A stretch of 33,416 nt of DNA from Myxococcales bacterium (lineage in GTDB: Bacteria > Myxococcota_A > Polyangia > Polyangiales > JAFGIB01): positions 1-33,416 of the forward strand of contig JAPPOR010000505.1 of the NCBI GenBank assembly GCA_028817905.1, written 5' to 3'. Below are positions 15,590 through 33,212 of this stretch, piece after piece. The position numbers and the translations under genes are program-made. The notes under the pieces were generated by a model, which had not been told where the DNA came from, made no database searches, and worked only from the letters and a program-made list of their open reading frames with translations. Positions within the stretch are counted from its first letter, which is position 1, and each line of letters begins with the position of its first letter.

Positions 15590-15682
15590 TCGGTTCTACA
15601 TACGCACTGATCGGATCGCCACCGGCGGACTGCCCGGCCCGACGTGCCTTGCCGGCGGCTCGACCCGCGGGTACTGGAAGGC

Positions 15683-17334: not shown

Positions 17335-17379
17335 TGGTCGGGGCAGCCCGATTCGAACGGGCGACCTCATGCTCCCAAA
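17335..17379. repeat. Left attachment site: 45-bp duplicate of the tRNA-Pro 3' part
   Basis: The 45 bp are identical to 33168-33212, the part of tRNA-Pro that runs from the anticodon loop through the encoded CCA. Identity stops abruptly in the anticodon loop, a usual crossover site for tyrosine integrases. No 5' half of the tRNA is present here, so this copy is not a functional tRNA. Confidence 0.92.
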
Positions 17380-17497
17380 CCGCCCCACGGGGTCTCAGAC
17401 GCGGACGGACATGGACTGCAACTGCATGAAAATACGCTTGTTTTCGGCACGCCCGGCTTGACGCTGAGTGCGCTGAATGGTCATGGTTGGACGCGAA

Positions 17498-17520
17498 AGG
17501 TTGCCCCAGAGGTTGCCCCA
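17498..17520. repeat. Tandem AGGTTGCCCCA repeats beside the integrase gene
   Basis: Two 11-bp copies at 17498-17508 and 17510-17520 have a 12-bp period. They lie between the att core and the integrase start, where arm-type integrase or excisionase sites are expected. Confidence 0.5.
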
Positions 17521-17546
17521 AACCTCACCGCAGTCGGTCGCGATCC

Positions 17547-18914
17547 ATGCCCCAGTACAAACGCTCTCCCCACCCAGGCGTCGTCCTCGCCAAGCGCACC
17601 AGGAAACGCGACGGCGTGATCACCGTCACCTGGCGCGCACGCTACAGGGACCCCGACACGCTGCTCATGGTCTGGGAGACCCTGGAGCCCACGCTCTCGA
17701 ACGCGACCGCCCGAAAGACCTGGGCCAAGCAGAAGTCCGAAGCGCTCTCGAGGCGACGTGCCGAGCTCGCCAGCGGTGCCCCGATCAAGACCCACACCCC
17801 GATCGAGAACGCCACCGACGACTTCATCACGTCCTGCAAGCACCGCCTGCGCACGTCGACCGTGACCCACTACGGCCACGGGTGCACCAAGTTCCGAGAC
17901 TGGGCCGTGCGCCGCGGCATCCACTTCACCGAATCACTGACCCCGCCCGAGCTGGTCGCATACCGGGAGCATGTCATCTCGGAACGCCGACGGGCCCCAA
18001 AGGCCGGCGGCACCCGCGGTACTCGCGCGACCACCGGCGAAAAACGCTCCCCCGAGTCGACCAACACGTACCTGCGCACGACCGAGACCCTACTCCTCCA
18101 CTGGCGCTCGCTCGGCTTGACCCCCACACTCCACCGCGACGACATCTCCGAATCGCTCAAGCCCCTACGAGCACGACGAGAGCCGGCCGAGTTCCTGCGG
18201 ACCCCGGATCTCCAGCTCCTGTTGTTAGCATCCGTTAAGCAGTACACCGCGATGTACACCGAGACACGCGACGAGCACGCCGGGCGTCGACCCCTCGGCA
18301 CGACCCCCAAGCACACCCCGATCGCCCCCTTCGTCGCCTTCATGCTGCTCTCCGGCTGCCGGCGTTCAGAAGGCCTGAGCCTCCGATGGCCGCTGGTACA
18401 ACTGAACGCAACCGACCGCGAGGGCCGCACAGTCGGCGAGATACGCCTGCCAGCAGAGATCCCCAAGACCCACCAAGCGCGAACGATCGGCCTCGAGGTC
18501 TCCCCCGGCCTGCACCGCCTCCTCAGCACCATCAAACCCACGACAGCCCGCTCCATGGGCCATCTGTTCTGCGGACACCAACCCTACACCGTCGACCTCG
18601 TCGAAACCGCACGCGCCCGCTTGATGGCCGAATACGGCGCCCCCAAGTTTTCCTGGCAAGTGCTGCGTTCCACCTGCGCCACCTTTCTGACCAACGCCCC
18701 CGGGATCTGGGGCGCCGCCACCGTGTTCCTCAGCGCCCGGCAGCTCGGACACAGTGTGGCCGTCGCCGAGAAGCACTACCTCGGTGAACACCGAGGCGTC
18801 CCCCGGGAGGCGCGCACGCTGGAAGCCGCGATGGGGATCGATGCGCAGCTTGAGGCGGTGACCGCTGCCGCTCGGCCATCGTCCCAGGCGTTGCGCCTGG
18901 TCACGAGTCAGTAG
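17547..18914 (+). CDS. Tyrosine recombinase (island integrase)
   Basis: The 455-residue protein from ATG 17547 begins MPQYKRSPHPGVVLAKRTRK; the upstream TTG-started frame would translate the repeat region and is not used. An N-terminal SAM-like core-binding domain spans about residues 85-185. The catalytic domain shows SGCRRSEGLSLRW (Arg272), a beta-hairpin lysine in IPKTHQARTIGL (Lys307), WQVLRSTCATFL (Arg374), LGHS (His402) and the nucleophile in KHYL (Tyr411). The histidine usually at the H-x-L-R position is Gln371. It would catalyse site-specific integration and excision at the tRNA-Pro 3' end. It reads from the left att site into the island. The gene appears intact. Confidence 0.93.
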   Translation: MPQYKRSPHPGVVLAKRTRKRDGVITVTWRARYRDPDTLLMVWETLEPTLSNATARKTWAKQKSEALSRRRAELASGAPIKTHTPIENATDDFITSCKHRLRTSTVTHYGHGCTKFRDWAVRRGIHFTESLTPPELVAYREHVISERRRAPKAGGTRGTRATTGEKRSPESTNTYLRTTETLLLHWRSLGLTPTLHRDDISESLKPLRARREPAEFLRTPDLQLLLLASVKQYTAMYTETRDEHAGRRPLGTTPKHTPIAPFVAFMLLSGCRRSEGLSLRWPLVQLNATDREGRTVGEIRLPAEIPKTHQARTIGLEVSPGLHRLLSTIKPTTARSMGHLFCGHQPYTVDLVETARARLMAEYGAPKFSWQVLRSTCATFLTNAPGIWGAATVFLSARQLGHSVAVAEKHYLGEHRGVPREARTLEAAMGIDAQLEAVTAAARPSSQALRLVTSQ

Positions 18915-19002
18915 TGGGCAACGCACGTTCATACTCATGGCCCTCAGCCTCGGCAGTCAGGGCCACCGAAGACGAATCAGCGGGGCGCGCCGCCGTCGCA
19001 CG

Positions 19003-19632
19003 TCAGAAATAGTGGTCCGGCAAGGTCATCCTCTTCAAGAATCCCTGCACCGCCTGGTTGTTGTACTTCGTCAACATGCTGTGGGGGCAGTAGTACTCGT
19101 GCCCTGCTGGCACGTGGTTTCCCTTCCATTCTCTATACAAGTAGTCGGGAATGCAGAAGGCCACTCGAAGAAAGCGTACGGGAAGAACGTGGTCATACGT
19201 CGGAGCCTCGGCGAACGTACCACACGCCCTCCAGCGGGGACGGGCCGCGCCTCCCGCGATACCTACCGCCTCGGTGAGCCATGCGCGTGGCAAGCAGGCA
19301 ATGACGCTACCCACGGTAGGCATGTAGCGCGATCGCTTGTCGTAGAGGTTCTGCCGGCTACCACTCACTTCCACGGCCACTGCATCCACGAACGAATCCG
19401 GAACGATATAGAACCACAGGCCATCCGGTTGCGTCTTGAACACCTCTGTGCCCGGAAGCCGAAGGGTGGGCGTTGTCGCCTGACCTTCCTTCGGCTGTGC
19501 TTGTATCCAATAACCACCATCATGCAGCGACGCCCACAGCATGGAAGTTCGCGTTGGCCATCCCCGTAGGATCTCCTTTGCCTCTCCATCCGTCAGGTTG
19601 TGCTTGTCGCGGATATGGTCCCATTTCGCCAT
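19003..19632 (-). CDS. Unknown protein downstream of the Res gene
   Basis: The 209-residue protein starts at ATG 19632 (MAKWDHIRDKHNLTDGEAKE), preceded by an AGGAAGAGG stretch; the frame extends 27 codons further but that part is low quality. It has no signal peptide or membrane helix. It is rich in aromatic residues and Pro (HDGGYWIQAQ; DGLWFYIVPDSFVDAVAVEV; RFLRVAFCIPDYLYREWKG; GHEYYCPH). I do not recognise the family and see no catalytic motif. It follows the Res-S24 gene on the same strand after 193 bp and could be an accessory subunit of that system, or independent cargo. Confidence 0.75.
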   Translation of the reverse strand: MAKWDHIRDKHNLTDGEAKEILRGWPTRTSMLWASLHDGGYWIQAQPKEGQATTPTLRLPGTEVFKTQPDGLWFYIVPDSFVDAVAVEVSGSRQNLYDKRSRYMPTVGSVIACLPRAWLTEAVGIAGGAARPRWRACGTFAEAPTYDHVLPVRFLRVAFCIPDYLYREWKGNHVPAGHEYYCPHSMLTKYNNQAVQGFLKRMTLPDHYF

Positions 19633-19825
19633 TGGCCTCTTCCTCCCCGTACTGCACGCGCTGCGAAGCACAGCATACGCGGCCGTAGAAGCCACGGTCG
19701 CGCCAGCTCTCAACGCCTCCGACCATCAACTGGCCTCCCGGTGATCTCCGAGTCCAACACCACGCGCAACTCAAACCACTCGCCATCTCACTTTGCGTCC
19801 CGACCGCCCGGAATCCTGGAACGCT

Positions 19826-22800
19826 TCATCCCGGTGCCACGCCAATACCAAGCACCTCGACCAGCTCGGCGATGACAGTCATCTCCCCGTCCTGCAAGTC
19901 CTCAAGGACGATTGGCTGATAGGTCGGGTCGGTCGAATCAGGCTTCAAGACGACCCGAGAGTGCTTCCACGAGCCCTCCCCGTCTGCTTCCTTCTCGCTC
20001 TCGTAGACCTTTACCGTGTACGTTCCGCCGTGCTCGGGGTCTTGAATGTCTCGGTGCTGGGCAAGGACCACCTTCCCCTGCCGCGTGCCGCCCGGATGCA
20101 ACCGCCACAGGCACCAGGCGCCGTTGGGGATCCGGCGGTTCATCGATTCCCCCACGACTTGAGCGACGAACAAGGACTCGGACGGCTTGCGGCCGCCGCC
20201 GAGCTCCGCCCAATCGTAGTCGGCCTCGTCAACTGATTGCACTGGCGAGAAGCCGCCCGCGGCGGCCTTCAGCTCGAGCAAAGGCACGCAGTTATGGTAC
20301 GGCTTGGCGACTTCGCGCTCGAGTCGTCGAAAGGGAAGAATGGTCGCTGCGATGGGAATGTTGACGTCGAAGTCGACGGCTACGTTGGACCGGTAGATCT
20401 CCGCCGCGGTCTTCTGGTCGTGCAGCACAGCCAGGCGTACTGCTTCGTCCTTCAAGTCGAGGACTCTCATGCGTCCGTCGATCTCGGCCAGGGCCTCGAT
20501 GCGGTGGAACGCACGTCCGAACTCCTCGGCGTACTTCGCGAGGGCCTTGAGTTTCATCGGCGCGTCGTCGAGGTGATGTCCATGTGGGTCGAGGATGGAC
20601 GCGACGACCTTTCCACTGACCTCGTGGAAGAACACGAAGTCGGGGTGCATGGACCGCCAGTTCCCGGTATCGTCGTCCCGGTAGGCAACTCCGAGCGAAT
20701 CGACCGCAGCTCGAGACGGGTTGCGGTACCAGCCACACACGTTGGGGCGTGCGAGTTCGGCCCGCACCACATCTCGCTCCCAACTGTTAAGCGACGTCAA
20801 TGGGAACTGCCCGTCGTCGTCCGCCATCAGATGTAGCGGCGCTAGTGGCGCCGGGACGATCTCGTCGCCTTCTTCAACCGAGAAGCCCTCGACGCGGGTT
20901 CTGGGAGGCCGGAGGACCCCGATTTGCGGGTCGGTAGCCATCGCGCGGATGTCCTCGTACTCTTGCTGGCGCGCGTCGGGAAGCCCCATGAGGGCTACCC
21001 GGTTCTCGGCGAACAGACGGTCGGTCAGCTCGAGGGCCTCACGGTCCACTTTGTCGCGCGCTTCCTTGACGGTGGCGAGGGCGGCGGCCTTCACGTACGC
21101 CTCACGCAGCCCGTCGTCATCGGCATCCTCCTCGTCGGGACCCGCCAGGCGGTTCACGTACGATTGTGCGACATCGGCGCCGAAGGCTTTCTTCGCTGCC
21201 TCGAACCCCGAACGGATAGCACGGTCATCCGCCCGCTCGACGAACTCTGCATACGTCAGACCCGCCTTGCCGAAGCGTCCTGCGATTTGCTTGACATGAA
21301 CGTCCCACACTTCCTGAATAGCTGCATCCAGCTTGTCCTCGTACCGTTTGGCATAGGCCTCGAGAATGAGGTGCAGCTCGTTCTCCACTCTGTGCAACGC
21401 GCCCAGCGACACACCGTCCGCCGATAGCGCCTGGGCCAGCGCGACCAGCCGCTTCACCGGCCGGGCTCCACGCTGCGGAAGGGTCTGCGTGGGAAGAGAC
21501 GCCCATACGTCCCAAACGTCATCAGATACGTTGGGATTGGGTAGCAGCTCCTTGCCATCGAGCACTGCCTTCTTTTCGCCGCCCGGCATGGCTTCCAGAT
21601 CGCCGGTCAAGTAACGGACCACCTTCACGGCGGTAGCTCGGTCGAAGAACGGCAGGATGCAGTCGACCGCGTTTAGCCGCTCATCGCCTGGGATGCGACG
21701 AGCCAGCGGGTTGCGGACCATGCGTCCGAGAAGCTGGGTGATGTGAGTGTTGTCCTTGGCGGGCCGAAACGAGACCAGCACCTCGGCGCGAGGGCAATCC
21801 CAGCCCGTCGAGATCGCGTCCTTGGCGATCAAGACGCGCACCTCCGGTGTTTCCTGCACGCGTTGAGGTTCGATCCATCTCACCTCCCATGCACCGTAGG
21901 TCTGCGTGGAGCGCTCGCCCAGCACGTGCCTGACCGCGGTAGCGCGCAAGTCCGGATATTCTGCGACGATGGTATCGAGCGCCACGCCGACGTCATCGGG
22001 GTTGGGCGTGTTCGGCGTTTGGAGCACAAGAAGGGGCTGAACGGGATCCCGGAGTCCTTGGGAGCTGGCGTATTCGGACCAGCGAGCCGTCGCCTCCCTT
22101 AGCTTGCGCGAAGCTCGGCGCACCAGGACGGAGTCGAAGTTGCCGACCTCGTCGGGAATGTCCAGAACAAGGGTGTCCTTGACGAGGCCGGATTCCTGCA
22201 CCCGGACGGGGTCGACCACAACCGCCTGCAGAATGCGTCGGTTCCCGGCGATCTCAGCTTCCTTCATCGCCGCCTCAAAGCGGGCGCTGGTCGCCGAAAT
22301 GCCCCACACGATGGGGATAGGTGGCCGCTGGCGCGTCCCGTTGATAAGACGGCGAACGATGGTTGGCTTGTCGCGGGTGGCCTTGCTGTTGAAACCGCGG
22401 TGCGCCTCGTCAAGCACAAAGTAGAGCGTGAGGTCCTCGGCTTCGACCGTGTTGGCGAGCGTCTGCCAGATGGTCCATCCTTGCATGTCGGGCGCGGCAG
22501 CCGTGATCGCGGGCATCTGCTCTTGAGGCCCACTAACAGGCTCAACGTGCCCGCGGGTCAGAAGGGAACTCTTGGTCAGCTTCTGTGTGTTCAGAAAGTA
22601 GACCTTGCCGGGATCGAGCCGTGGCTTGGCGAATGGCGGCTCGATTTGCACCAGGTTCGAGTACGTGAACTTCTCGGAGGCCTGGCGCAGACGGTTGAAG
22701 GTCTGCATGTTCAGGCTCGGATCATCGGAGAACCAGATGACCACAGCGCCAGGGTCTGGATCGAAGTCAAAGGCCTCGTTGCCCCAGAAGAGCGCCTCAA

Positions 22801-22966
22801 TCGCTGCCGCGGCCATCACCGTCTTGCCAGCGCCAGTGGTGGCCGTGAGCGAGAAGGCCGAGAGCTCCCGCTTACCTGGGTTCTTGAAATTGTCGCGGGC
22901 CCGCCGGAGATTGGAGAGGACGTCGTCTACGGCATCGGCCTGGTAGTCCTTGAGCGTGAACCTCAC
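19826..22966 (-). CDS. Type III restriction Res subunit with C-terminal S24 (LexA-like) peptidase domain
   Basis: The 1046-residue protein is an SF2 helicase-nuclease. Walker A is TATTGAGKT (41-49), DEAH is at 186-189, SAT at 224-226, and helicase motifs V-VI are DAISTGWDCPRAEVLVSFRP and QLLGRMVRNP. A nuclease-like region follows with HPDF (774-777) and SILDPHGHHLDDA (about 790-802), the PD-x-(D/E)xK-like site of this Res family. Beyond it lies an extra domain: FVAQVVGESMNRRIPNGAWC (Ser941 in G-E-S-M-N) and GTYTVKVYE (Lys986). These are the Ser and Lys positions of LexA/UmuD/phage-repressor S24 peptidases. The ATG overlaps the stop of the mod gene by 4 bp. It would translocate on and cleave unmodified DNA with Mod; the S24 domain suggests self-cleavage or damage-responsive control. 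Confidence 0.92.
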   Translation of the reverse strand: MRFTLKDYQADAVDDVLSNLRRARDNFKNPGKRELSAFSLTATTGAGKTVMAAAAIEALFWGNEAFDFDPDPGAVVIWFSDDPSLNMQTFNRLRQASEKFTYSNLVQIEPPFAKPRLDPGKVYFLNTQKLTKSSLLTRGHVEPVSGPQEQMPAITAAAPDMQGWTIWQTLANTVEAEDLTLYFVLDEAHRGFNSKATRDKPTIVRRLINGTRQRPPIPIVWGISATSARFEAAMKEAEIAGNRRILQAVVVDPVRVQESGLVKDTLVLDIPDEVGNFDSVLVRRASRKLREATARWSEYASSQGLRDPVQPLLVLQTPNTPNPDDVGVALDTIVAEYPDLRATAVRHVLGERSTQTYGAWEVRWIEPQRVQETPEVRVLIAKDAISTGWDCPRAEVLVSFRPAKDNTHITQLLGRMVRNPLARRIPGDERLNAVDCILPFFDRATAVKVVRYLTGDLEAMPGGEKKAVLDGKELLPNPNVSDDVWDVWASLPTQTLPQRGARPVKRLVALAQALSADGVSLGALHRVENELHLILEAYAKRYEDKLDAAIQEVWDVHVKQIAGRFGKAGLTYAEFVERADDRAIRSGFEAAKKAFGADVAQSYVNRLAGPDEEDADDDGLREAYVKAAALATVKEARDKVDREALELTDRLFAENRVALMGLPDARQQEYEDIRAMATDPQIGVLRPPRTRVEGFSVEEGDEIVPAPLAPLHLMADDDGQFPLTSLNSWERDVVRAELARPNVCGWYRNPSRAAVDSLGVAYRDDDTGNWRSMHPDFVFFHEVSGKVVASILDPHGHHLDDAPMKLKALAKYAEEFGRAFHRIEALAEIDGRMRVLDLKDEAVRLAVLHDQKTAAEIYRSNVAVDFDVNIPIAATILPFRRLEREVAKPYHNCVPLLELKAAAGGFSPVQSVDEADYDWAELGGGRKPSESLFVAQVVGESMNRRIPNGAWCLWRLHPGGTRQGKVVLAQHRDIQDPEHGGTYTVKVYESEKEADGEGSWKHSRVVLKPDSTDPTYQPIVLEDLQDGEMTVIAELVEVLGIGVAPG

Positions 22967-25110
22967 GGGGCACCTCGACCGGATTCGATCTCGAAGTTCC
23001 GGAGGTACGCCTCGTAGAGGCGAACTGGCTCGACGTGATCGGGAAGCTTCTGCGCGACGGACTCGAACAGGCGGTCTTCGTCCGTGACAATGTACGCAAT
23101 GGACAGTTCGTTCGCGGCAATGACTTTCTTCAAGAAGGCCTTAGTTCGGTCGAGGTTGGCCAGCACCCCGTAGGTATCGGCAACATCCCAGCCATCAGCA
23201 ATGCTCTCGATACGACGGCCGCGTGCGCCGGCTCGTAGCCAAAGCAGGGGTGCGATCTTCTTGAACTCGCGGTGCGAGGCGACCCGGAGCGGCGCCTCAT
23301 AGGTGAGGGTGAAGAACTCGACGTTCGCTTCAAGCCCCTCGGCGATCGGAAACTCGTCGGTGAACTTGTAGTCGCCCTTGACCGAAACACCTTCCGGAGT
23401 CTTGCCGGTCACGGCCGCTGCTATTCGCGGCTTCGTAATGTATTCGCAAATCCCACACGACTCCCAATCCGTGTCGCCCGGGCGAAAGCGCCTCTTTCGG
23501 AGCACTTGCTGTTCGTCCGCCGCAACCTCGTTGTTTGTCACGGATATGCATTGGCGGCGCCCCGTGTCCTGGCGATTCAAACGCATCACCGCGTGTGTGG
23601 TGGTGCCAGAACCGGCGAAGAAGTCGAGGATGACCGCTGCGGGCTTGTCCTTGAGAAAGAAGCGGAGCGAGTCTTCGACCGCGTAAAGGGACTTCGGGAA
23701 CGGGAAGCTGCGTTCCGGAACCAGGGCCCTTAACATGCTCGTTCCGTAGGCGCCAGCGTCGTGGGCCTTCTCGCGCCAGACGGTAGTTGGTCGCGAAACC
23801 TTGCCACCAGGCATTACCACGATCTTGGAACCATCGCTTCTTTCACCAGTGACCTTGTACCGACCAGACGTGATGTTCTTTGCGACGCCCCTGAGGTACT
23901 TGATCGTCCACGGCTGCTCTGCGTTCGTACCCGCAGTGACTCGGACAAACCCATCCCGGTCCGCCTGCCGGAGCGACGGAGCAGTCAACCCCCACACCAT
24001 TTCTGTCCCGTCGGCCTTTACGGGGTAAACCGCAGTACAGCCGTGGCGGTGCGGCTCAGTCCCTCGGTTGGCGCCCGGTGGCAGGGGTTCGCCGACCAAC
24101 TCGATGCGGCCCGAATCAGTACCAACGTAGATCGGGAAGAATTGATTCGGACGGCCGGAGGCTCGCGTGCTCGTCCGCTCGTCACGCCGCAGGTACTGCC
24201 ATCGAGCCTCGACAGCCTCGCCGGCTGCTCCGTCGTCTAGCGCGAGCTGCACTTGGCCGATGAACGCCACGAAGACGTACTCATCCACGCGGGAGAACTC
24301 GTTGGCTCGGCTCGTCCCTCGCGGACTTATCGTGATGCTGATCATTTGTACGCGCGCCGCGGGGAAGATCTGCTCGAGTAGTAGACCCAGGCGCAAGTAC
24401 TCCTTTTCGTCGACTGTGACGATCAGCACTGAATCATCCGGGTTCAGGAGTTCCCTTGCCAAGAGCAGGCGTCGCTCCATAAATGCAAGCCACTTCGAAT
24501 GGCGGTAGAGGTCGTCGGCCTCCACGTAGTTGTTGTTGTACTTCCAGTCCTTGGCGCCCGTGTTGTACGGGGGGTCGATGTAGATGGCGTCGACGCTGCC
24601 GCGATGCGTGAACAGCAACGTCTCCAGGGCGTGATAGTTCTCTGCGTTGATCACAGTGTGGAACGGCTTGTCACCACCGCGCGCCACTTTGCCGGTGGAG
24701 ACCAGGCCCGGGTAGATCGGGTCACGGAACTCGGCGACCACGACTAGGTCCTCAAGGGACGCCAACGTTGCGTTCCCGTCGGGCAAGCTTGCCTGCCCAT
24801 CGACATCTCCGGAACCAACCGCCGCGAGCGGCTCCAAGGTCGCCCGCCCTGTGGACCGATCGATGCCAACGACCCGCCACAGCTTCTCGTCCGACTTCTT
24901 GGGCGTCTGGCCTCGGGGCGGCAGAACGCGGACCTTGTCGCCCTTGCGGACCTTGCGCCCAGGCAGCTCGACTGCCTCCGGAACGTGACGCTCGAAATTT
25001 AGGCCGAAAGCGCGTCGCTCCGACAGGGCGTTCACCTCGCGTTCGAGATCACGGGCTAGTGCGGGTTCCCTGGCTCGAAGCTCGCGGAGTAGGTCACTTA
25101 TCCGGGACAC
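22963..25110 (-). CDS. Type III-like N6-adenine DNA methyltransferase (Mod)
   Basis: The 715-residue protein starts at ATG 25110 (MSRISDLLRELRAREPALAR). An N-terminal helical and beta region (1-130) precedes VINAENYHAL, then the catalytic DPPYNTG at 179-185. The target-recognition region spans about 255-460, and the S-adenosylmethionine-binding FAGSGTT is at 498-504. DPPY before FxGxG is the beta-class order of type III Mod proteins. The C-terminal 150 residues (EANVEFFTLTYEAPLRV onwards) form an extra domain also seen in large Mod homologues. Mod provides sequence recognition and protects host DNA; with the overlapping Res gene it forms the restriction complex. No frameshift or phase-variable repeat is seen. 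Confidence 0.93.
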   Translation of the reverse strand: MSRISDLLRELRAREPALARDLEREVNALSERRAFGLNFERHVPEAVELPGRKVRKGDKVRVLPPRGQTPKKSDEKLWRVVGIDRSTGRATLEPLAAVGSGDVDGQASLPDGNATLASLEDLVVVAEFRDPIYPGLVSTGKVARGGDKPFHTVINAENYHALETLLFTHRGSVDAIYIDPPYNTGAKDWKYNNNYVEADDLYRHSKWLAFMERRLLLARELLNPDDSVLIVTVDEKEYLRLGLLLEQIFPAARVQMISITISPRGTSRANEFSRVDEYVFVAFIGQVQLALDDGAAGEAVEARWQYLRRDERTSTRASGRPNQFFPIYVGTDSGRIELVGEPLPPGANRGTEPHRHGCTAVYPVKADGTEMVWGLTAPSLRQADRDGFVRVTAGTNAEQPWTIKYLRGVAKNITSGRYKVTGERSDGSKIVVMPGGKVSRPTTVWREKAHDAGAYGTSMLRALVPERSFPFPKSLYAVEDSLRFFLKDKPAAVILDFFAGSGTTTHAVMRLNRQDTGRRQCISVTNNEVAADEQQVLRKRRFRPGDTDWESCGICEYITKPRIAAAVTGKTPEGVSVKGDYKFTDEFPIAEGLEANVEFFTLTYEAPLRVASHREFKKIAPLLWLRAGARGRRIESIADGWDVADTYGVLANLDRTKAFLKKVIAANELSIAYIVTDEDRLFESVAQKLPDHVEPVRLYEAYLRNFEIESGRGAP

Positions 25111-25151
25111 GGATCCGGCACTCTACCGTATCGCCAGGATCTCATGGCTGC

Positions 25152-25164
25152 TAAAATGCAGTGG
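25152..25164 (+). promoter_or_regulatory. Possible -10 box for leaderless helicase-nuclease mRNA
   Basis: TAAAAT at 25152-25157 is 5 of 6 to the sigma70 -10 and is 6 nt before GTG 25164. No ribosome binding site is visible. Transcription from here would start at the start codon. The -35 is not convincing. The 50-bp gap also holds the mod promoter. Confidence 0.3.
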
Positions 25165-27932
25165 TGACGGCCTACACCGACGCGCAGGCGGAGGCGATCG
25201 CATGCCTCGACAGGCCCCTGCAGGTGATCGCCTGTGCAGGGTCCGGCAAGACTCAGGTCATCTCGCAGCGGATTGCGGGCATGCTGGCTCAGCCAGAGAC
25301 ATCGCCCGCAAACGTAATCGCATTCACATTTACCGAAAAGGCTGCTGCCGAGCTGAAGGAGCGCGTCCTGTCCATCGTGGCGCGCGAGCTGGGCGACGTC
25401 ACCGGGCTGGCGGAGATGTACATCGGCACGATGCACGGGTACTGCCTGGACCTGCTCCAGCGGCTCGTGCCCGACAAGTTCAAGTTCTCCGTGCTCACAG
25501 ACGTCACGGCGCAGTTGTTGGTGGACCGGTACAGTGGCCAGTCGGGGCTGACGAGTTGTCCCACCAGCGCGAGGCCAGGGGTGCTACGTCGCTACGTCAA
25601 CTCGAAGCTGTACCTGCAGGTACTTAGCGTGCTGCGGGAAGACAAGGTCGACTTCCGTCAGGTCGCGGCCGGTGTCATTGAGGCCTTCGAGAAGTACCGC
25701 ACGCTACTGCATGAGAAGTCCGTATTCGACTACACGGCGATCATCCGAAACGCGGTCGATTACCTGGAAGGTGACCCGTACGAAGACGACGATTTCGCCC
25801 GGGTCCAGGAACACGTCCGCGACGATATCCGCTACGTCGTGGTCGACGAGTACCAGGACGTAAATGCGCTACAAGAGCGCCTCATTCGGGGGCTGGTCAG
25901 CGCAGGAGCCAACCTGTGCGTCGTCGGCGACGACGACCAAACGATCTATCAGTGGCGCGGGAGCCAGGTGTCGAACATCGTCGCCTTCGCGAAGCGGTAC
26001 CCCAATGTTCAGCAGGTGACCCTCGACCAGAACTTCCGCTCAAGCCGGGGTGTTGTAGAAGTTGGCCGGTCCGTGGCCGAACGGATAGCCGCGAGCGATC
26101 GCCTTCCCAAGGCGATGGTCGCCTCCGGGCACCAGTCCTGGGAGCGAGGCGACCTGTTGGCTCTGACGTTCGACGACCCGACCGCAGAAGCAGCCTGGAT
26201 TGCAGACCGAATCGAACACCTACGGGGGATACCGTTCAGGGACCGCCCGGACGCCGAGCCTCGCGGACTGTCGTGGTCGGACTGCGCGGTTCTGTTTCGG
26301 TCCGTCGCCAAGGACTCGGAGCCGGTGGTCGATGAGCTGCGGCGTCGTGGGATCCCGTTCGTCGTGAAGGGACTGAACCGGCTCTTCGACAGTCCCGAGA
26401 TTCAGGCAGTTGTGGGCATCTTCCGCTTCATGGCCAGCGACATCGACGCCGCTTCATTGTTCGCACTCTGGGAGGTTGCCGAGCTGGTTCCGACCGGCGC
26501 GGACTGGACGAAGGCGATGACCGTTCTGGAGGTCGGGCGAGACTTCGACGCAAACAAGCGGCACGCTGTCTACAATATCCAACGCCTGTACCTGGACTTC
26601 CTTGAGGCGTTGGACATGCGCGAGGACACGTTGCCAGCCGATTCTGGTCGGGGTGAGCTCGTCTTCTACCAGCTCGGCAAGTTCAGCCAGGTGATCTCCG
26701 ACTACGAGCAGATCTACTTCACGGTGGCTCCTAAGTCGAAGTACAAGGGGTTTGCCAAGTGGCTTGAGCACCAGGCGCGGGACTACTACGCCGACGCAGA
26801 TGCCGACGTCGGCTACGCCGCCCCGGACGCCGTCACGATCGCGACGGTCCATCAGTCGAAGGGTCTACAGTGGCCGGTGGTGTTCCTACCTGCGCTGCGC
26901 AAAAACCGATTCCCGTCGCGCGTGATGGGTGGAGTTACGCTGCGCCACGTCATTCCGGATGAAGCGCTCGAAGAGCCCGATCGGTACCGTGGAACGGTCG
27001 AAGATGAGACGCGGCTGCTGTACGTGGCCGTCACTCGAGCGCAGAAGTACCTGTACGCCACGTTCGCCCCGGTAGAGACCAACAAGCAGCAGAAGAAGCG
27101 CTCACCCTTCTTCGACCACATCGCCGCCCAGCAGTGGGTCTCGACGGCTCCGGCGCCCATCGGCGGCGACCGGTTGGCGCCGCAGCCCCGTCAGGAGACT
27201 CCACAGGTCACCCTGTCGTTCTCTGAACTCAAGTACCTGTTCGAGTGCCCCTACCAGTTCAAGCTGCGCTTCCTGTACGGGTTCAACGCCCCCATTCAAG
27301 AGGCGCTCGGTTACGGAAAGGGACTCCACGACGCGCTGTCTGAGATCCACAAGCGCGCACTGGAGGGCGAGGTCGTCACCAAGGCTTCGGCAGCCGCGCT
27401 CATTGACCGGCATCTCAACGCACCCTTCGCCTATCCGGCCCTGTTTGACCAACTCCGAAAGGCTGGAATCAGGGCGATCGAGCGGTACTTCGACACCCAC
27501 GGCGACGAGATCGCCAACACGGAGTTCTCCGAGAAGCAGATTCAGGTCCATGTCGCCCCTGGCATCACCGTGGACGGCCGCATCGACTTGATTCGCCGGC
27601 TCGACACCGGCGAGGTCGCGATCGTCGACTTCAAGTCAAGCGAGCGCGCCCAGGCCGAGGATGTCACCCGCGATCAGCTACATGTCTACGCTGTCGGCTA
27701 CCACGAGCTGACCGGGCAGTCCGCCGACCTCATCGAGGTGCTGAATCTCGACGAGAAGGGCGAGACGACCCGCGAGGCGGTCGTCGCCCCCCTGCTGACT
27801 GCAGTCCGGGACAAGATCCGAACTGGCGGCGAAGGGCTGCGCAAGAACGAGCTTCCGCGGCTCGCAACGTGGGACAAGCACAAGTGCGGCTCATGCGACC
27901 TTGTTGCGCTTTGCCGTAAGCGGCCGCAATGA
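25161..27932 (+). CDS. UvrD/Rep-family helicase fused to a Cas4/AddB-like nuclease
   Basis: The 923-residue protein can start at tandem GTG codons 25161 or 25164. SF1A helicase motifs are complete: Q-motif region TDAQAEAI; Walker A ACAGSGKT (24-31); AFTFTEKAAAELKER; Walker B VVVDEYQD (to 233); GDDDQTIYQWRG (256-267); TIATVHQSKGLQWPVVFLPA; and RLLYVAVTRAQ. The C-terminal 230 residues carry a PD-(D/E)XK nuclease: FECPYQFKLRFLYGF, GRIDLIRR, VAIVDFKSS and Q-x-x-x-Y. C909-x2-C912-x5-C918, with the Cys in FECPYQF, matches the four-cysteine Fe-S cluster of AddB/Cas4 nucleases. It would unwind and degrade DNA ends. It is divergently transcribed from the mod-res operon and is probably part of the same defence locus, though a repair role is possible. 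Confidence 0.92.
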   Translation: MVTAYTDAQAEAIACLDRPLQVIACAGSGKTQVISQRIAGMLAQPETSPANVIAFTFTEKAAAELKERVLSIVARELGDVTGLAEMYIGTMHGYCLDLLQRLVPDKFKFSVLTDVTAQLLVDRYSGQSGLTSCPTSARPGVLRRYVNSKLYLQVLSVLREDKVDFRQVAAGVIEAFEKYRTLLHEKSVFDYTAIIRNAVDYLEGDPYEDDDFARVQEHVRDDIRYVVVDEYQDVNALQERLIRGLVSAGANLCVVGDDDQTIYQWRGSQVSNIVAFAKRYPNVQQVTLDQNFRSSRGVVEVGRSVAERIAASDRLPKAMVASGHQSWERGDLLALTFDDPTAEAAWIADRIEHLRGIPFRDRPDAEPRGLSWSDCAVLFRSVAKDSEPVVDELRRRGIPFVVKGLNRLFDSPEIQAVVGIFRFMASDIDAASLFALWEVAELVPTGADWTKAMTVLEVGRDFDANKRHAVYNIQRLYLDFLEALDMREDTLPADSGRGELVFYQLGKFSQVISDYEQIYFTVAPKSKYKGFAKWLEHQARDYYADADADVGYAAPDAVTIATVHQSKGLQWPVVFLPALRKNRFPSRVMGGVTLRHVIPDEALEEPDRYRGTVEDETRLLYVAVTRAQKYLYATFAPVETNKQQKKRSPFFDHIAAQQWVSTAPAPIGGDRLAPQPRQETPQVTLSFSELKYLFECPYQFKLRFLYGFNAPIQEALGYGKGLHDALSEIHKRALEGEVVTKASAAALIDRHLNAPFAYPALFDQLRKAGIRAIERYFDTHGDEIANTEFSEKQIQVHVAPGITVDGRIDLIRRLDTGEVAIVDFKSSERAQAEDVTRDQLHVYAVGYHELTGQSADLIEVLNLDEKGETTREAVVAPLLTAVRDKIRTGGEGLRKNELPRLATWDKHKCGSCDLVALCRKRPQ

Positions 27933-28009
27933 CCGCCAGCCTCGCGGCCCCACTTGAGGCCTTTCTAGTACCGCCTGGGCCGGCGATGGCTGGGTGGCGC
28001 CAAGCTGTC

Positions 28010-28938
28010 TCAAACCTCGACCTCGGTCACGATCGGCACGCCAACCTCGTTTGCCACCGGTGTCCAGACGTCGACGTCCGTCGCGTCGGTTTCGATCGAG
28101 ACGATGAGGGCGTAGCGGGCGCCCCGGGCGCCGCGGTCGCGGGTGGGCTGGTCCTTCCACCAGCCGCTGACGAGATAGATGCCCACCACGCCACGCTCGG
28201 CGAGATCGGCAGCGAAACCCTGCAGGTGGTCTGAGTGCACGGAACCGTGGTTGCGGGCCTGGGGGCCGGGTACCAGCCATCCGGGCCGTCGGCCTTGGGT
28301 TTGTCCTCATCCTCTTCCAGCGCCTGCTGGTTGAGCCGTTTGCGGAACTCGTCGAGCGACTCGGTGGGGCCTTTGACGTCGAAGCGGAGGCCGTGGGAGG
28401 CGTACCGGTGGCGCTTTGTCCAGCCACGCCGACCGGGGTTGGGCTCGATGAAGTAGGACAGCGTGACGCGCAGACGCACGGGCTGCTCCCCCAGGCTCTG
28501 AAGCACCTCGGTGGGCCAGGGCAGGTCGAAGAAGTGGATGTCACCCATGCTTCGCTTCTTCGGGTCCTTGCCGGGCACGAACGGCCGGATGGACCCCTGG
28601 GCGATCAACGTCAGGGAGTCACTGGCACTGCGGAGCGCCCGGGAGAGACGCGGGACCCCGAAGCCATATCGCCGAACGAGCATCTCCCGCTTTCGCTTGC
28701 CCCCCGCACCGCGAAGGTGGCCCTGCATGGCGCGCGTCCACTCGGCGGAGTGCACGATCAATCCACGGACGGTCTCCGGCCACAGCGGCGGGTACTGGGC
28801 CTTGATGATCGCCGCCATGCGCGCCGCTTGGGCCGTGGCCGCACTCGTTGCGTAGGTCAGCACGAACGGCTTCTGGGCCGGCTTGTAGTGCGTCGACAGG
28901 AGGCATAGGTCGGGGCACCAGCTGATCTCTGTATTTTC
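28010..28938 (-). pseudogene. C-terminal remnant of a subtilisin-like (S8) protease
   Basis: Starting immediately after and in frame with the TAG of the upstream gene, the frame reads WCPDLCLLSTHYKPAQKPFV then TYATSAATAQAARMAAIIKA; T-S-A-A-T is the S8 active-site serine region. The catalytic Asp and His segments are missing, so the first half of the gene is deleted. A second lesion lies near 28267-28269: after DGWYP the reading frame shifts, and the continuation (GPQARNHGSVHSDHLQG, later GIYLVSGWWKD and VPIVTEVEV) is found in another frame ending at 28010. One missing base after the Trp-Tyr codons explains this. Full-length relatives are often encoded beside an AAA ATPase; none is present here. 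Confidence 0.8.
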
Positions 28939-29442
28939 CTACGATGCCGTCACCATGCGTCTCAGCACTCGGTCGGCGGAATCCGTCTCCAGCACGGACA
29001 TGGGGGACTGGTTCAGCTTCATGTTGATCTCGGCGATGTCGGCGGCGCCGAGCCCGCCCGTGTACAGGACCATGTGGTCGAACATGTGCCTGTAGTCCAA
29101 CATCGACCCGACCACGCGCCGCTCATCGGTCGGCGCGTAGGCCTCGGGCTCGTAGACCCCGAATCGGTCGATCAGGGTCTCGGGCAACGCGAGCGACGCG
29201 AGGATGGTCCGGAACTCGAACCTGAACAGCCCGTGGAACTCGCGTAGCTCGGCCGCCGTGACTGCCGGCCGCACGAACGTCAGCAGCGTCGGGCGGTGCA
29301 CCCAGATCACGGCCTTCTTACCTTGCACGAAGAACAGGTCGGCGAACCACTCGTGCTCGGGGTTGTGCTGTTCGACGGGCTGCTTCGGGAGCTTGACCTT
29401 GAGCGCCGTGGACAGCTTCTTTGTGACTCGAAACAGCGGCAT
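28939..29442 (-). CDS. DUF6933-like small protein
   Basis: The 167-residue protein starts MPLFRVTKKLSTALKVKLPK, followed by EWFADLFFVQGKKAVIWVHR and PTLLTFVRPAV. The T-K-K-L start, W-(Y/F)-A-(N/D)-L strand, R-x-x-x-(L/I) strand and (R/E)-T-L-(F/L)-(S/T)-F strand fit the DUF6933 family, whose function is unknown. No signal or membrane segment. It ends at TAG 28939-28941, and the S8-protease remnant continues from there in the same frame with no gap. The upstream gene ends 51 bp away, so it is in an apparent operon with the ParB-like fusion. Confidence 0.8.
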   Translation of the reverse strand: MPLFRVTKKLSTALKVKLPKQPVEQHNPEHEWFADLFFVQGKKAVIWVHRPTLLTFVRPAVTAAELREFHGLFRFEFRTILASLALPETLIDRFGVYEPEAYAPTDERRVVGSMLDYRHMFDHMVLYTGGLGAADIAEINMKLNQSPMSVLETDSADRVLRRMVTAS

Positions 29443-29493
29443 CAGCTCTCCCCGCTCACCTGCCGGTCGCGGTACCGATTCCGACAGGCCGCC

Positions 29494-30003
29494 CTACTCC
29501 CCTTCATCGGGTTCCCGCACCTCGACGTCCGGCCGTACGTGCACCTCCTCGTCGAACACGAACTCGATGCGCATGCCCCAGCCCCCGAATGTGCCGATCA
29601 TCTTCACGAACTCACGTAGGGTGAAGTCGCGGTCGTCGATGGACACGACGGTCTCGTCGAGGTTGGGCTCGATCGCAGCGTCGGTCTCCACCACGCACCT
29701 CAGGACGTGCCCGCGCGGCACCCACTGGTCGCACTGGGCTTCATAGATGACCTGGGGTTTGCCCACCGGGATTTCAATTGCTGGAGCGTCCTGTGCGCGA
29801 ATGAACTCGTCGGTCGCCTCGATCCCGTCGTTCCATACCGCGAGGATGTCAGCGTCGGTCATGGTGGCGAGTTTGTCGCGGCCGATCGTGAAATGTGTCG
29901 TTCGGACCCGAGGATCTGCGTACTGGATGATCGCGGCGTCGCCGTCGCGAGTGATCTTGACCTGGTCGGGAGAGGCGACGTAGGGACGCTTGCGCTTCGG
30001 CAT
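29494..30003 (-). CDS. Unknown 169-residue protein (possible independent gene within a longer frame)
   Basis: From ATG 30003 the protein reads MPKRKRPYVASPDQVKITRD, then IIQYADPRVRTTHFTIGRDK, VPRGHVLRCVVETD, DFTLREFVKMIGTFGGWGMR and an acidic tail. It has the character of a complete small soluble alpha/beta protein. I know no function. Its frame is open upstream into a ParB-like protein without an intervening stop, but the 45 residues just before this Met look non-coding, and a weak AGG lies about 12 nt upstream. An independent start here is more likely than a genuine fusion. It is 51 bp upstream of the DUF6933-like gene. Confidence 0.7.
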   Translation of the reverse strand: MPKRKRPYVASPDQVKITRDGDAAIIQYADPRVRTTHFTIGRDKLATMTDADILAVWNDGIEATDEFIRAQDAPAIEIPVGKPQVIYEAQCDQWVPRGHVLRCVVETDAAIEPNLDETVVSIDDRDFTLREFVKMIGTFGGWGMRIEFVFDEEVHVRPDVEVREPDEGE

Positions 30004-31092
30004 GACGGGGCGGAGCCTACCAGAGATGCGATCGACATGCGGGGGCACTTCACAAGAGGCCGCAACGAACACGATCTGCGTCAGCCGGTGAAAATGCGGC
30101 GGCCATCGCAGGGAAGGGCAGGTGTTTCGAACGCGCCCAGGACGAACAGCGAGGCGCTCGTGAATCCTGGTCTGCATCGGTGGGGCCGCGTGGTATCCGG
30201 GAACCATGACCACAACCCGAGAGCCACACCCCGACGGGCCGCAGACCGGACAGGACGAGCTGCCTTCCAACGGCAAGATGTCGGCGATCATGCTCGGCTT
30301 CGCCGAGCCTCTGATCACCGCGATGGGTCCCTGCAGAAACTCGAATACAGCGAGCGCCCTGTCCCGGCGAGCTCGCTTCGCTGGCGACTCCGACTCGTGC
30401 TGGTGCGAAGGGCCCGGGTCGGTGGCGAGCGGACTCCCCCACCCCTCGCCAAATGTCTTGAGAAATTCGAGTGGGTCATCGTGCACCAGGTCGCAAGCGT
30501 CCACACGGGTCTCTAGCTGCACGGCACCCGGCTCTGCCTGACCAGGAGCTCCCGTTTCATCGCTCGGCTGATCGACCTCTGTTCCGCGCGCTGTCTGGTA
30601 GGCAGCCATCACCTCGCGCACGCGGTTTGCATTCACCTCTGCGACGTCCACGGGCTCGATGAGTGGCCGCTCGAGGGCTTTCTTGAACGCCCGACTTCCG
30701 CCGCTCCTGAACGCCTCCACCGCAGCCCTTCGGCGGTCGATGTCCGGTTCTCGGCAGAGGGCTAGCAAGGAGGATTGGGTGATCGCAAGCTTTGGCTGGT
30801 CGGCAAGCAACGCGCGAGTCCCCGCGTCAAGCTGCGCGATCCGTAGCAGCCGGTCCACGAAGCTCGGCGAACGATCGAGTCTCTCCGCCGCGACATGTAC
30901 AAAGGGCGCAACGCCGTGGGGGTTGAGCTTTCCGTGGCCGGTGCCGGTCTCGAGCTCGTACAACTCCTTCGCCTGGGTCAACAGGTCGGCAACGGGCAGC
31001 AACGCACGATACATCGCCCGGTGCACTCGCAGTTCGATCCGGTCAATCCGTCGCTTGGCTTCGTCGAGAAGTTCTTCTGAATCAGCGCGCAT
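29494..31092 (-). CDS. ParB/KorB-like DNA-binding protein reading in frame into the following gene
   Basis: From ATG 31092 (MRADSEELLDEAKRRIDRIE) the frame gives 532 residues. Residues about 25-160 show a ParB/KorB-like helical DNA-binding region: ALLPVADLLTQAKELYEL, AERLDRSPSFVDRLLRIAQL (helix-turn-helix), LADQPKLAITQSSLLALCRE and RRAAVEAFRSGG. A polar linker follows, then CPVCGPSGCG, a possible zinc-binding cluster. From about residue 315 to 360 the sequence looks like translated intergenic DNA before joining the 169-residue unit. No N-terminal ParB CTPase box is seen. It may regulate or segregate the element. The missing stop suggests a mutation or deletion fused two genes, or only the first 300 residues matter. 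Confidence 0.6.
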   Translation of the reverse strand: MRADSEELLDEAKRRIDRIELRVHRAMYRALLPVADLLTQAKELYELETGTGHGKLNPHGVAPFVHVAAERLDRSPSFVDRLLRIAQLDAGTRALLADQPKLAITQSSLLALCREPDIDRRRAAVEAFRSGGSRAFKKALERPLIEPVDVAEVNANRVREVMAAYQTARGTEVDQPSDETGAPGQAEPGAVQLETRVDACDLVHDDPLEFLKTFGEGWGSPLATDPGPSHQHESESPAKRARRDRALAVFEFLQGPIAVIRGSAKPSMIADILPLEGSSSCPVCGPSGCGSRVVVMVPGYHAAPPMQTRIHERLAVRPGRVRNTCPSLRWPPHFHRLTQIVFVAASCEVPPHVDRISGRLRPVMPKRKRPYVASPDQVKITRDGDAAIIQYADPRVRTTHFTIGRDKLATMTDADILAVWNDGIEATDEFIRAQDAPAIEIPVGKPQVIYEAQCDQWVPRGHVLRCVVETDAAIEPNLDETVVSIDDRDFTLREFVKMIGTFGGWGMRIEFVFDEEVHVRPDVEVREPDEGE

Positions 31093-31378
31093 AGCCCCGC
31101 ACCACGACCCAATGGTGAGGGACCAGAGCAAGAACGCTCCGAGCTGCGACCGACCCGGGCCAAGGTAATCGGCACCCATCAGCTCTTAGAACACGATGCA
31201 AGGACGACGGTCGCGGCGTCAAGGGCGAGGTCGCAAAGGCGTCAACTTTGACGGCTTTGGGCGATACTTGCGTGGTCGAGCTGCACGCCGGCCAGCTCAA
31301 CCGGGGAAATGCGCACGGCACAGGTGCCATGCGACTGATCGTCGATGTGCCGGTCGGGCGGCGTAAATACACCTGCAC

Positions 31379-31867
31379 CTATCGTTCTAGGCGTTCCTCC
31401 CACCCGTCCAGCGCGCGCTCGCATTCACGCATGAATTCCGCGGCGTTCGGGAGCACCTCTCCAGCCACGGCGCGCACACGGTCGATGAATGCTGCGTAAA
31501 TACATTGCAGGTCTTCGCTGTATGGGGGCTCTCGATCAACCCAAGCTTGCCGCCCTCCAGAACGATCGCGGCCATCTTCTTGAGCGCGTCGATCCGTCTG
31601 GATCGCTTCCTGTCGATCAGGTTGTGTTCTTCCCTGGTGTTCGTCGACGGCAACCTCGTGCCTGATTGAAGCGGCTTCGACAGCCAACGCGTGAACGGCG
31701 AGGAGCAGTACGTCTTCACCTCGGTCGCCACGCTCGATCGCCCCCACGAGGGCATCACCCTCGACATGCCTGCGCCGCGCCCGGTTGCACGCCTCGATGT
31801 ACTCGTCTTGGCTGGGAACGTCCGCAGGGGGCGTCCGGATTCGAGGCGGCCGGCCCGCCTTCGGCAC
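31379..31867 (-). pseudogene. Unknown protein gene with two compensating frameshifts
   Basis: The frame from ATG 31867 begins MPKAGRPPRIRTPPADVPSQ and stays protein-like to about VAVDEH. The middle (GRTQPDRQEAIQTDRRAQED) has poor codon use. In the neighbouring minus frame the same bases read EEHNLIDRKRSRRIDALKKM then AAIVLEGGKLGLIES, with GC-ending codons throughout. The first frame becomes protein-like again at SEDLQCIYAAFIDRVRAV. So one indel lies near 31630 and an opposite one near 31535. Either these are real mutations leaving a protein with about 30 altered residues, or two assembly errors. Function unknown; predicted soluble and helical. Confidence 0.6.
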
Positions 31868-32329
31868 GCCTGCACAAGTTGACCCTGCGCGTCGCGGGCG
31901 AGATGGAGAGGTTTCGGGACGTGGGCGTGCACGGAATAGAGCTGGACCGGTTCTGCTGATCGGCAGCCGACAAATGGATCATCGACACCACGGGTTTTGT
32001 CGGTATTTTCTCATCCTGGTGTTTCTTGCGAGGCCGCGGGCATGCATGGCGGGTTTTGGGCAGGCCAGCTCGAAGGCACCACGTGTAGCGGACGATTCTC
32101 ACCCTGGGCGCGGGGGCGCCGGGATCCCGCGAAGAGCACCAGCGAAGAGCATCAGATGGCGGAAACCACCCACGCGTGCATGGCTTGTACGCGTACGCCC
32201 TTTCCTACCTGCACCGTCGCCAGCCTCGCACTCCCAAAGCCAATTCCCCAATACCTGTAGCTGTAGCTGTTCGCGCCGTGCCTTGCGGCCTTCCAGCGCC
32301 ACGGCAGGCGTCGTCTACGCGGCAGCCCA
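31868..32329. other. Island intergenic region without a supported gene
   Basis: No frame on either strand has a ribosome binding site and protein-like composition. A 13-bp imperfect tandem (GCGAAGAGCAYCA, 32129-32154) and the palindrome GTACGCGTAC near 32189-32198 are the only structures noticed. Probably decayed sequence. Confidence 0.5.
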
Positions 32330-32800
32330 TCATGGGCTTCTTTTCCCCATCCCTTGTCTGCGCGTCGCGATCTCTCGTTCGAGCAAGGGTCTACACGTGT
32401 CGTGGGCACCCATGTTGGCCGGGTGGAGGCAAATGTATCCGAAGTACACATCGCCGCGGTCATCGCCCGTGCGCCCGACCGAACTCTGCCACGGGGCTCC
32501 TGACGTGATCTCGGCAACCTCGCCCGCACATTCCTCGAGCCATTCGATGTAGAGCCCCCGGTCGGGAAGATCACCAGCGATGCGGGCGGTACCGGAGCGG
32601 GGAAGTTGGATCTCGTGCGTCCGACCTCGCTGCAAGCGCCCGCTGCCGTCCTGGCTACCGAACGCGATCAGGAACGGGGCGTCATGCTTGCAGGGGAGGA
32701 CGACCCGAAGGTGCACGAACGCGAACTGCGTGTACGCCTTGTAGCCCAAGAAAGCGGCGAGGACGGCAACCACCGCCCACAAGAGGCGACGACGGAGCAC
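32330..32800 (-). CDS. Membrane-anchored unknown protein
   Basis: The 156-residue protein starts at GTG 32800 (VLRRRLLWAVVAVLAAFLGY), preceded by a GGGGCGGG purine stretch. One N-terminal membrane helix anchors an extracytoplasmic domain. That domain has LRVVLPCKHDAPFLIAFGSQ, GRTHEIQLPRSGTARIAGDL, EWLEECAGE and YFGYICLHPAN; its four cysteines could form disulfides. I do not recognise a family. It follows the 83-residue gene on the same strand. Confidence 0.7.
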   Translation of the reverse strand: MLRRRLLWAVVAVLAAFLGYKAYTQFAFVHLRVVLPCKHDAPFLIAFGSQDGSGRLQRGRTHEIQLPRSGTARIAGDLPDRGLYIEWLEECAGEVAEITSGAPWQSSVGRTGDDRGDVYFGYICLHPANMGAHDTCRPLLEREIATRRQGMGKRSP

Positions 32801-32901
32801 CTACCCGCCCCGCCGCCGCGTCGCTGCTGCACGACTGTCTTGTTTCATTGCTCGAACAGGCTCCTGGTAGTCTGGCCGCATGAGGCGTTCGGTCGGCAGC
32901 T

Positions 32902-33153
32902 TCACAGCGGGACCAGGGTACAAATGGCACCCATCGGGCGTCGATTGTCTCCCCACAGGGCGACGCCTGGCCCCGTGTTTGGACCGTGGGATGTTTCGAA
33001 CGTGACGATGAGCGTCCGCCGCCGCGTCCGGGTCTGCTCGACGAACACCTCCGCATTCGGAAACGCGTCGCCGGAGAGATCCGCGTTGATGCGCAGGCTG
33101 TTGCCGAACAGCTCAGTCTTGAAACGCAAGTGCACATCGATGTCCGGAGACAC
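32902..33153 (-). CDS. Small unknown protein next to the right attachment site
   Basis: From GTG 33153 the protein has 83 residues (VSPDIDVHLRFKTELFGNSL, then RINADLSGDAFPNAEVFVEQ, and RRTLIVTFETS). The frame extends back into tRNA-Pro, so the first in-frame valine after the tRNA is used. Third positions are G or C in most codons, and the strand pattern suggests a small beta-rich protein. It begins 15 bp inside the island from the tRNA 3' end. No function can be proposed. Confidence 0.5.
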   Translation of the reverse strand: MSPDIDVHLRFKTELFGNSLRINADLSGDAFPNAEVFVEQTRTRRRTLIVTFETSHGPNTGPGVALWGDNRRPMGAICTLVPL

Positions 33154-33167
33154 GGGGTCAAGTGTTG

Positions 33168-33212
33168 TGGTCGGGGCAGCCCGATTCGAACGGGCGACCT
33201 CATGCTCCCAAA
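33168..33212. repeat. Right attachment site within tRNA-Pro
   Basis: Same 45 bp as 17335-17379, in the same orientation. It spans from the CCA end to the first base of the anticodon loop. Beyond 33212 the sequence is the host 5' half of the tRNA. Confidence 0.92.

Follow-up and report, generated by a model that had tools for sequence, protein, structure and literature searches.

The systems closest to the element described here are known from reports on islands in tRNA genes, on mycobacteriophages and on archaeal integrases. The Islander catalogue comprises 2083 islands of the class whose attachment site is centred on the anticodon (PMC4383910). In the mycobacteriophages CrimD and Pixie, the core of the phage attachment site (attP) is located in a tRNA or tmRNA gene; the arm-type repeats of CrimD form pairs on both sides of the core, the pairs of Giles and L5 are stated to be direct, and a putative MerR-like excisionase (Xis) is described (PMC3203893). 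For the archaeal suicidal integrases of the pT26-2 type, 14 tRNA genes are reported and diversification of the target is inferred (PMC8371274). Here we analyze a segment (positions 17335-33212) of a 33,416-nucleotide stretch of DNA from a Myxococcales bacterium, subsequently designated the window, which represents bases 1-33416 of a 54,469-bp contig in an assembly of 1110 contigs. With a probability of roughly 85%, site-specific recombination at tRNA-Pro(UGG) brought this segment into the chromosome as a genomic island, which most likely is no longer able to excise itself.

Ends of the island and its integrase

The first-pass annotation of the window had claimed that the 3' part of tRNA-Pro is present twice and without mismatch, with one complete tRNA at the right end. 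Indeed, an exact direct repeat of 45 bp occupies positions 17335-17379 and 33168-33212, which is far beyond chance, and corresponds to positions 33-77 of tRNA-Pro(UGG), i.e. the stretch that begins in the anticodon loop and ends with the encoded CCA. The copy at 17335-17379 (minus strand) is a displaced 3' fragment of the tRNA gene and provides the attachment core at the end carrying the integrase gene (int). The copy at 33168-33212 (minus strand), the attachment core at the tRNA end, lies within tRNA-Pro(TGG) (33244-33168, minus strand), the single complete tRNA that ARAGORN detects in the window. No third copy was found in the 11.1-Mb assembly with either the tRNA alone or the tRNA plus 172 bp of upstream sequence as query. 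A tyrosine recombinase gene had also been placed inside the left copy, and int (17547-18914, plus strand) does start 167 bp inside it. Thus, the segment shows what defines islands of this type, a complete tRNA at one end, a same-strand 3' fragment at the other and an integrase between them, and repeat, single complete tRNA and integrase together support the proposed integrase-driven island in tRNA-Pro with ends known to the base.

According to the mechanism that we envisage, the integrase would have joined a circular element to the chromosome by a crossover presumably located in the anticodon-loop region. The 3' part of the tRNA carried by the element would have restored tRNA-Pro at the right end (33168-33244, minus strand), while the chromosomal 3' part would have been pushed to 17335.

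The integrase comprises 455 residues and starts with the ATG at 17547 rather than the TTG at 17487, as judged from alignments with homologues. It escapes the curated cut-offs: Pfam Phage_integrase scores 19.8 bits with a cut-off of 27.1 and NCBIfam yields only a sub-threshold XerC match, while phrog_1, the integrase family of PHROGs, matches with an E-value of 1.1e-14. The structural model (mean predicted local distance difference test score, pLDDT, of 88.3) shows three strands and then a helix in the N-terminal domain, followed by further helical and catalytic parts, and the best matches among solved structures in Foldseek are the integron integrase and Cre. The N-terminal domain resembles arm-binding domains and is predicted to bind DNA accordingly. 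Residues R272, R374, H402 and Y411 are invariant and K307 nearly so among 19 sequences; we take these five residues to be the catalytic ones. The first histidine of the RKHRH signature is replaced by Q or K in five aligned family members. No match to the integrase was found in phage or plasmid records, and the family profile had no sequence match among solved structures. Literature searches turned up no title naming this integrase family, which is weak evidence of absence.

Attachment sites across the integrase family

To place the island among its relatives, the contigs of 84,980 species were scanned, which yielded 18 integrase loci that, by their titles, stem from Polyangiaceae, Sandaracinaceae, Planctomycetota and other metagenome-assembled genomes. 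For the comparison, L084, L090, L091 and L093 were dropped, as the match fell short of the N-terminus, and the window, two paralogues from its own genome (57% and 55%) and L105 were added, resulting again in 18 elements. A stretch matching a tRNA was present upstream of int on the opposite strand in 15 of these 18 (library of 113 tRNAs, E-value 0.01). In ten of the 15, the match covers 43-50 nt with at least 97% identity and starts at tRNA positions 27-33, the targets being Pro(TGG) in four cases, Val(TAC) in two and Ala(GGC), Gly(CCC), Met(CAT) and Arg(TCG) in one each. Anticodons read by eye are Pro(GGG) in L063, Arg(TCT) in L080, Arg(TCG) in L081, Phe(GAA) in L085 and Arg(ACG) in L105 and, where the library gave no match, Val(TAC) in L083 and Gly(CCC) in L088; L092 shows no fragment. 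A single contig holds both ends for the window, for L076 (Gly), L078 (Met) and L079 (Val), for C391 (Ala) and for L082 (Pro) and L087 (Val). In all seven, the complete tRNA is at one end and int at the other, where it points towards the interior of the island. In genomes G002 and G006 (both Pro) the ends are on separate contigs, and their pairing would follow from the tRNA and repeat sequences. Altogether, eight relative islands show both ends and the same order of tRNA fragment, repeats, int, cargo and full tRNA.

Upstream of int, the elements carry pairs of short direct repeats that have a period of about 12 and vary in sequence between the elements. In the window, the pair is located at 17498-17520 (plus strand) in front of int and represents a putative arm-type site. 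When the 120 bp preceding the aligned int start were assessed by an exact-run statistic against 500 shuffles, 15 of the 18 elements reached p<0.05, including L086, which passed by virtue of a repeat other than the one seen by eye; for the window, none of the 500 shuffles scored as high. The elements that failed are L079 and L089, in which pairs are visible by eye further upstream, and L063, which has degenerate copies. In the genome carrying the window, the exact pair occurs once, at 17498, and at one other place with 3 mismatches; a backward control pattern gives three. The repeats of the window and those of the relatives may well be bound by the integrase. In the relatives, going by layout and model, the N-terminal domain would bind the repeat pairs peculiar to each element on either side of the core, while the core-binding and catalytic domains would act at the tRNA.

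Relatives of the integrase were also present at 7 IMG/VR loci. In L150-L153 (45-34% identity) a repeat pair, the tRNA fragment, a second repeat pair and int follow each other within about 500 bp, which is what an undivided attP should look like; L154-L156 (31-33% identity) do not have this layout. As only 3 of 10 scanned open reading frames (ORFs) in L151 and L152 match phage families (a RecE-type exonuclease, a helicase and a weak holin-like match), the viral nature of these contigs rests mainly on their inclusion in IMG/VR.

The repeat unit of the int side was subsequently sought beside the core on the tRNA side, within 240 bp (202 bp in L153). All 12 relatives addressed, i.e. the eight islands and the four viral contigs, scored above each of 1000 shuffles, and the pair is located 45-49 bp from the core in nine of them and 70-72 bp in three. 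In contrast, no tRNA-side arm was found in the window, in which 415 of 1000 shuffles reached the score within the 240 bp, and on the forward strand three units sought over 1 kb at the right end did not score above shuffles. A further arm pair was also not found inside the island. A survey of 125 distinct tRNA 3' flanks identified 15 with a run of at least 8 at a period of 11-13 within 130 bp, and the flank of the window is not among them. Six of these 15 have an offset of 44-48 (five known islands and L168), three known islands are at 69-72, and the remaining six have repeats at other offsets and belong to no known island. L168 (G282, tRNA-Met) carries a period-12 pair 46 bp from the tRNA 3' end, predicting an unlisted island of this type. 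A helix-turn-helix gene was detected beside the right arm in three relatives (HTH_17 in C391 and G006, HTH_3 in L076), and in each of the three it ends just before the arm, the HTH_17 genes of C391 and G006 being short. HTH_17 genes are of a kind often found in excisionases. At the right end of the window no such gene was matched, the three ORFs in the last 1.8 kb yielding no family match in Pfam or PHROGs at the thresholds applied.

Since the arm repeats on the tRNA side are missing, the island would most likely be unable to excise by itself: it is probably stranded or was rebuilt at its right end, with half of the exit signal gone. The circular form predicted in the first-pass annotation is accordingly doubtful, as the right end is devoid of the arm repeats present in 12/12 relatives. 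Either a simple deletion or the fusion of two elements may have removed the right arm.

Whether the tRNA target follows descent was addressed with a tree of 21 integrases carrying 12 target labels, several of them read by eye and two uncertain, in which 4 of 18 inner branches are well supported. The tree requires 16 target changes, and shuffled labels average 16.0; at this divergence, the tRNA target has no detectable signal in the tree. The 13 ORFs of the window were also compared with the ORFs of six islands, and matches occurred only through int and, in the case of C391, through IetS. Somewhat short of even odds, in our estimate, is a broader proposal: that this family of Polyangiales, Planctomycetota and phages, which the Pfam and NCBIfam cut-offs miss, adheres to a single, rigid layout of attP (a repeat pair some 48 or 71 bp away from the tRNA 3' end, a core starting from the anticodon loop, a second repeat pair, int) while tRNA target and repeat sequence change along much of the tree, so that core and arm specificity would evolve as exchangeable modules and a missing arm would mark stranded islands.

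Two of the relatives share the genome of the window. The C391 island (from position 244 of L064 to position 2020 of L142, C391 21519) occupies tRNA-Ala(GGC), measures 21.2 kb and encodes IetA, IetS, a Schlafen-like protein, the RNA repair proteins Hen1 and Pnkp and a Rep_1 match; it also has a Pfam MerR match, whose domain is more than 1 kb away from the right arm. Contig C92 (L063, 3877-5480) carries the third integrase of the family in this genome; the tRNA fragment there reads as Pro(GGG), and the repeats are degenerate and doubled. The full tRNA for this fragment was not found, only the fragment itself matching without mismatch, and one end of the island is thus known.

Weighing the evidence

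Several points weigh against the favoured interpretation of an island that entered at tRNA-Pro and is probably stranded. The repeat units used for the tRNA-side search were hand-picked by the author from the int side. On the reverse strand of the 1 kb at the right end, the unit of a paralogue reaches 13/16, equal to the best of 300 forward shuffles, and a right arm that has diverged or is located further away may exist in the window. Base composition is of no clear help, the GC content being 0.60-0.67 in the island and 0.61-0.73 in the flanks. The empty site, predicted as rdgB and tRNA-Pro followed by the PAP2 gene, did not turn up among 56 genomes, which include the own genome and otherwise no congener. 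Finally, the empty sites of two relative islands were not found either when their joined flanks were compared with 8 genomes of their genus; the core matched, as did parts of the right flank in several genomes, and the left flank only over some 22 bp beside the core.

Searched in the same 56 genomes, the end comprising tRNA and rdgB matched 49, mostly through the tRNA alone, and the closest PAP2 homologue (62%, G004) is on a 3.8-kb contig without tRNA, followed by an Hsp70-like ORF. Conservation of the whole of 17380-33167 as chromosome, named beforehand as the observation that would speak against an island, was not seen: the integrase is present in 4 of the 56 genomes (own, G002, G005 and G006; E-value 0.001) and the methyltransferase Mod encoded by the island in 1, the own one (E-value 1e-60), so that this segment as a whole is not conserved chromosome. 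Within the class, the integrase was detected in 12 of 317 genomes (E-value 1e-40). The order rph-rdgB-tRNA-Pro is kept in the own genome and in G001, and the tRNA is followed by the island in the former and by a ParA-like ORF in the latter. In G005, rdgB adjoins tRNA-Pro and the contig stops at the tRNA 3' end; in G002, rph adjoins tRNA-Pro with no rdgB between them, and the tRNA also borders on one end of a different island belonging to the family. As the content after tRNA-Pro differs in these genomes, the tRNA is the point at which they start to differ.

Some further loci were noted in these comparisons. In G001:C115 (L069, 1-674), the ParA-like ORF behind rdgB-tRNA-Pro is located at the contig end and possibly belongs to an element of another kind. 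Among the congeners of L082, G282:C56 (L161) and G283:C50 (L159) have a partly duplicated tRNA-Pro(TGG), the copies being about 17 kb and 15.5 kb apart, respectively, whereas in G280:C22 (L160) partial copies are separated by only some 50 bp, which resembles the scar that the loss of an island would leave.

Among the rival explanations, a composite origin fares best and is a tentative possibility. Two elements would have been arranged in tandem at tRNA-Pro, and a deletion would have fused the int-bearing end of one with the tRNA-bearing end of the other, thereby removing the right arm. This would account for a missing arm beside an intact core; moreover, tRNA-Pro hosts other elements in G002 and in several genomes of another genus, and a period-13 repeat at 32129-32151 resembles the arm units. 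However, no third tRNA-Pro fragment above chance was found inside the island, the repeat at 32129 is about 1 kb away from the core and may be due to chance, and a composite origin overlaps with the favoured stranded island and does not exclude it.

The second rival, an island that is still mobile, we consider unlikely. Its right arm would have diverged, be located elsewhere or be unneeded, or factors from the two other loci of the integrase family would act in trans. In line with this, the reading frame of int is open and the residues invariant in the family are retained, both cores are identical and two homologous integrases are encoded in the same genome. However, the homologous integrases have other repeat units, and a right-arm score at the level of shuffles (over 240 bp, and over 1 kb on the forward strand) has to be set against 12/12 relatives above all shuffles.

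A contig misjoined through the 45-bp repeat is very improbable. The assembly is fragmented, and contigs of G005, G045 and G049 end at this tRNA, but the unit of fragment, repeat and int at the left end recurs in independent assemblies, so that only the join to the flank could be wrong. Conserved chromosome with a chance or unrelated partial duplication of the tRNA would agree with the missing empty site and is hardly credible in view of the exact core in correct orientation, the adjoining integrase and the recurrence of this layout at several tRNA genes in eight relatives.

Two candidate features of the right part of the island remain to be mentioned. The direct repeat at 32129-32151 has a period of 13, resembles the arm units of relatives and is located ~1 kb from the tRNA; it may be fortuitous. 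A decayed third tRNA-Pro core near 32200 was rejected, as the best local scores in the island were 15-16 and those in three shuffled islands 12-17.

Cargo genes and comparison with known systems

The ORF next to int (19003-19713, minus strand; 236 aa as listed) has no family match. It is followed by res (19826-22966, minus strand), coding for a type III restriction subunit with a ResIII domain, Walker A and DEAH motifs and a C-terminal S24 peptidase-like domain with the Ser and Lys positions, and by mod (22963-25110, minus strand), which encodes the type III methyltransferase (PADLOC PDLC03645, E-value 9.4e-259; motifs DPPY and FAGSG). Both genes are adjacent, overlap by 4 bases and possess their respective motifs, as is characteristic of a type III restriction-modification system, and the pair looks intact. 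Of note, the S24 (LexA-like) end of Res keeps the Ser in GESM and a downstream Lys, and might be self-cleaving or link control of restriction to damage. Next come a UvrD-like helicase with a C-terminal PD-(D/E)XK nuclease (25161-27932, plus strand) and the remnant of an IetS-type subtilase (28037-28806, minus strand), of which only the C-terminal part is left in two frames; frameshifted, it aligns with residues 553-831 of the C391 IetS. IetA was not found in the window with the C391 IetA as query, and the IetAS system of the island appears to have decayed to this remnant. A DUF6933 protein (28939-29442, minus strand; PADLOC candidate PDC-S63) and an ORF with a C-terminal DUF7713 (29494-31179, minus strand) follow. 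Judged from these gene families, the island would supply defence to its host. Relaxase or secretion genes marking a conjugative or mobilizable element were not found (9 + 3 island ORFs, Pfam only), nor were the virion genes of a prophage among 10 island ORFs compared with PHROGs, plus Pfam, in a scan that covered the longer ORFs.

On the chromosome side, rdgB (Pfam Ham1p_like) and rph (RNase_PH) are located to the right of tRNA-Pro (L062; rdgB partly masked), and only the 3' end of rdgB (33300-33416, minus strand) is inside the window, beyond which the gene continues. Left of the island, two divergent PAP2 genes occupy 14681-17300, and a similar pair, with no tRNA beside it, is present in G004:C692.

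As such, the island is of an ordinary kind. The comparison with its relatives, however, yields a rule, precise to the base, for recognizing the entire attachment site used by the integrase family, by which complete and stranded islands can be told apart on the basis of sequence. That a single genome harbours two islands of the family at different tRNA genes, each with defence genes, fits the shuttling of such genes by islands of this type. A set of integrases covering several tRNA targets, together with the matching arm repeats, would allow target choice to be mapped to protein segments and, if core and arm specificity were indeed exchangeable modules, would constitute a natural set for re-targetable integrases.

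Islands of this kind are already known with respect to the anticodon-type tRNA island (PMC4383910), the two-armed attP 5' of int (PMC3203893) and the spread of targets within an integrase family (PMC8371274). The integrase shares with arm-binding-domain tyrosine recombinases (PMC8138268) an N-terminal domain of three strands and one helix preceding core-binding and catalytic domains, as well as integration near tRNA genes, but falls below the curated Pfam and NCBIfam cut-offs and has the first His of RKHRH replaced. As in pT26-2-type integrases (PMC8371274), one family serves many tRNA genes; those, however, are archaeal and their att site is translated within the integrase. The attP of CrimD, Pixie, Giles and L5 likewise has its core 5' of int, flanked by short arm-type repeats (PMC3203893). 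These mycobacteriophages belong to another host group, and the likeness concerns the layout of attP and not kinship of the integrases; moreover, the two pairs of CrimD are mutually inverted, whereas here both pairs have the same orientation. With the Islander tRNA islands (PMC4383910), the window shares the internal integrase, the complete tRNA at one end, the displaced 3' fragment at the other and the anticodon-centred site. It differs in that int is distal to the tRNA in every complete member of the family found here and that the tRNA end of the window is without arm repeats; by the Islander criteria, the island would still count as putatively active.

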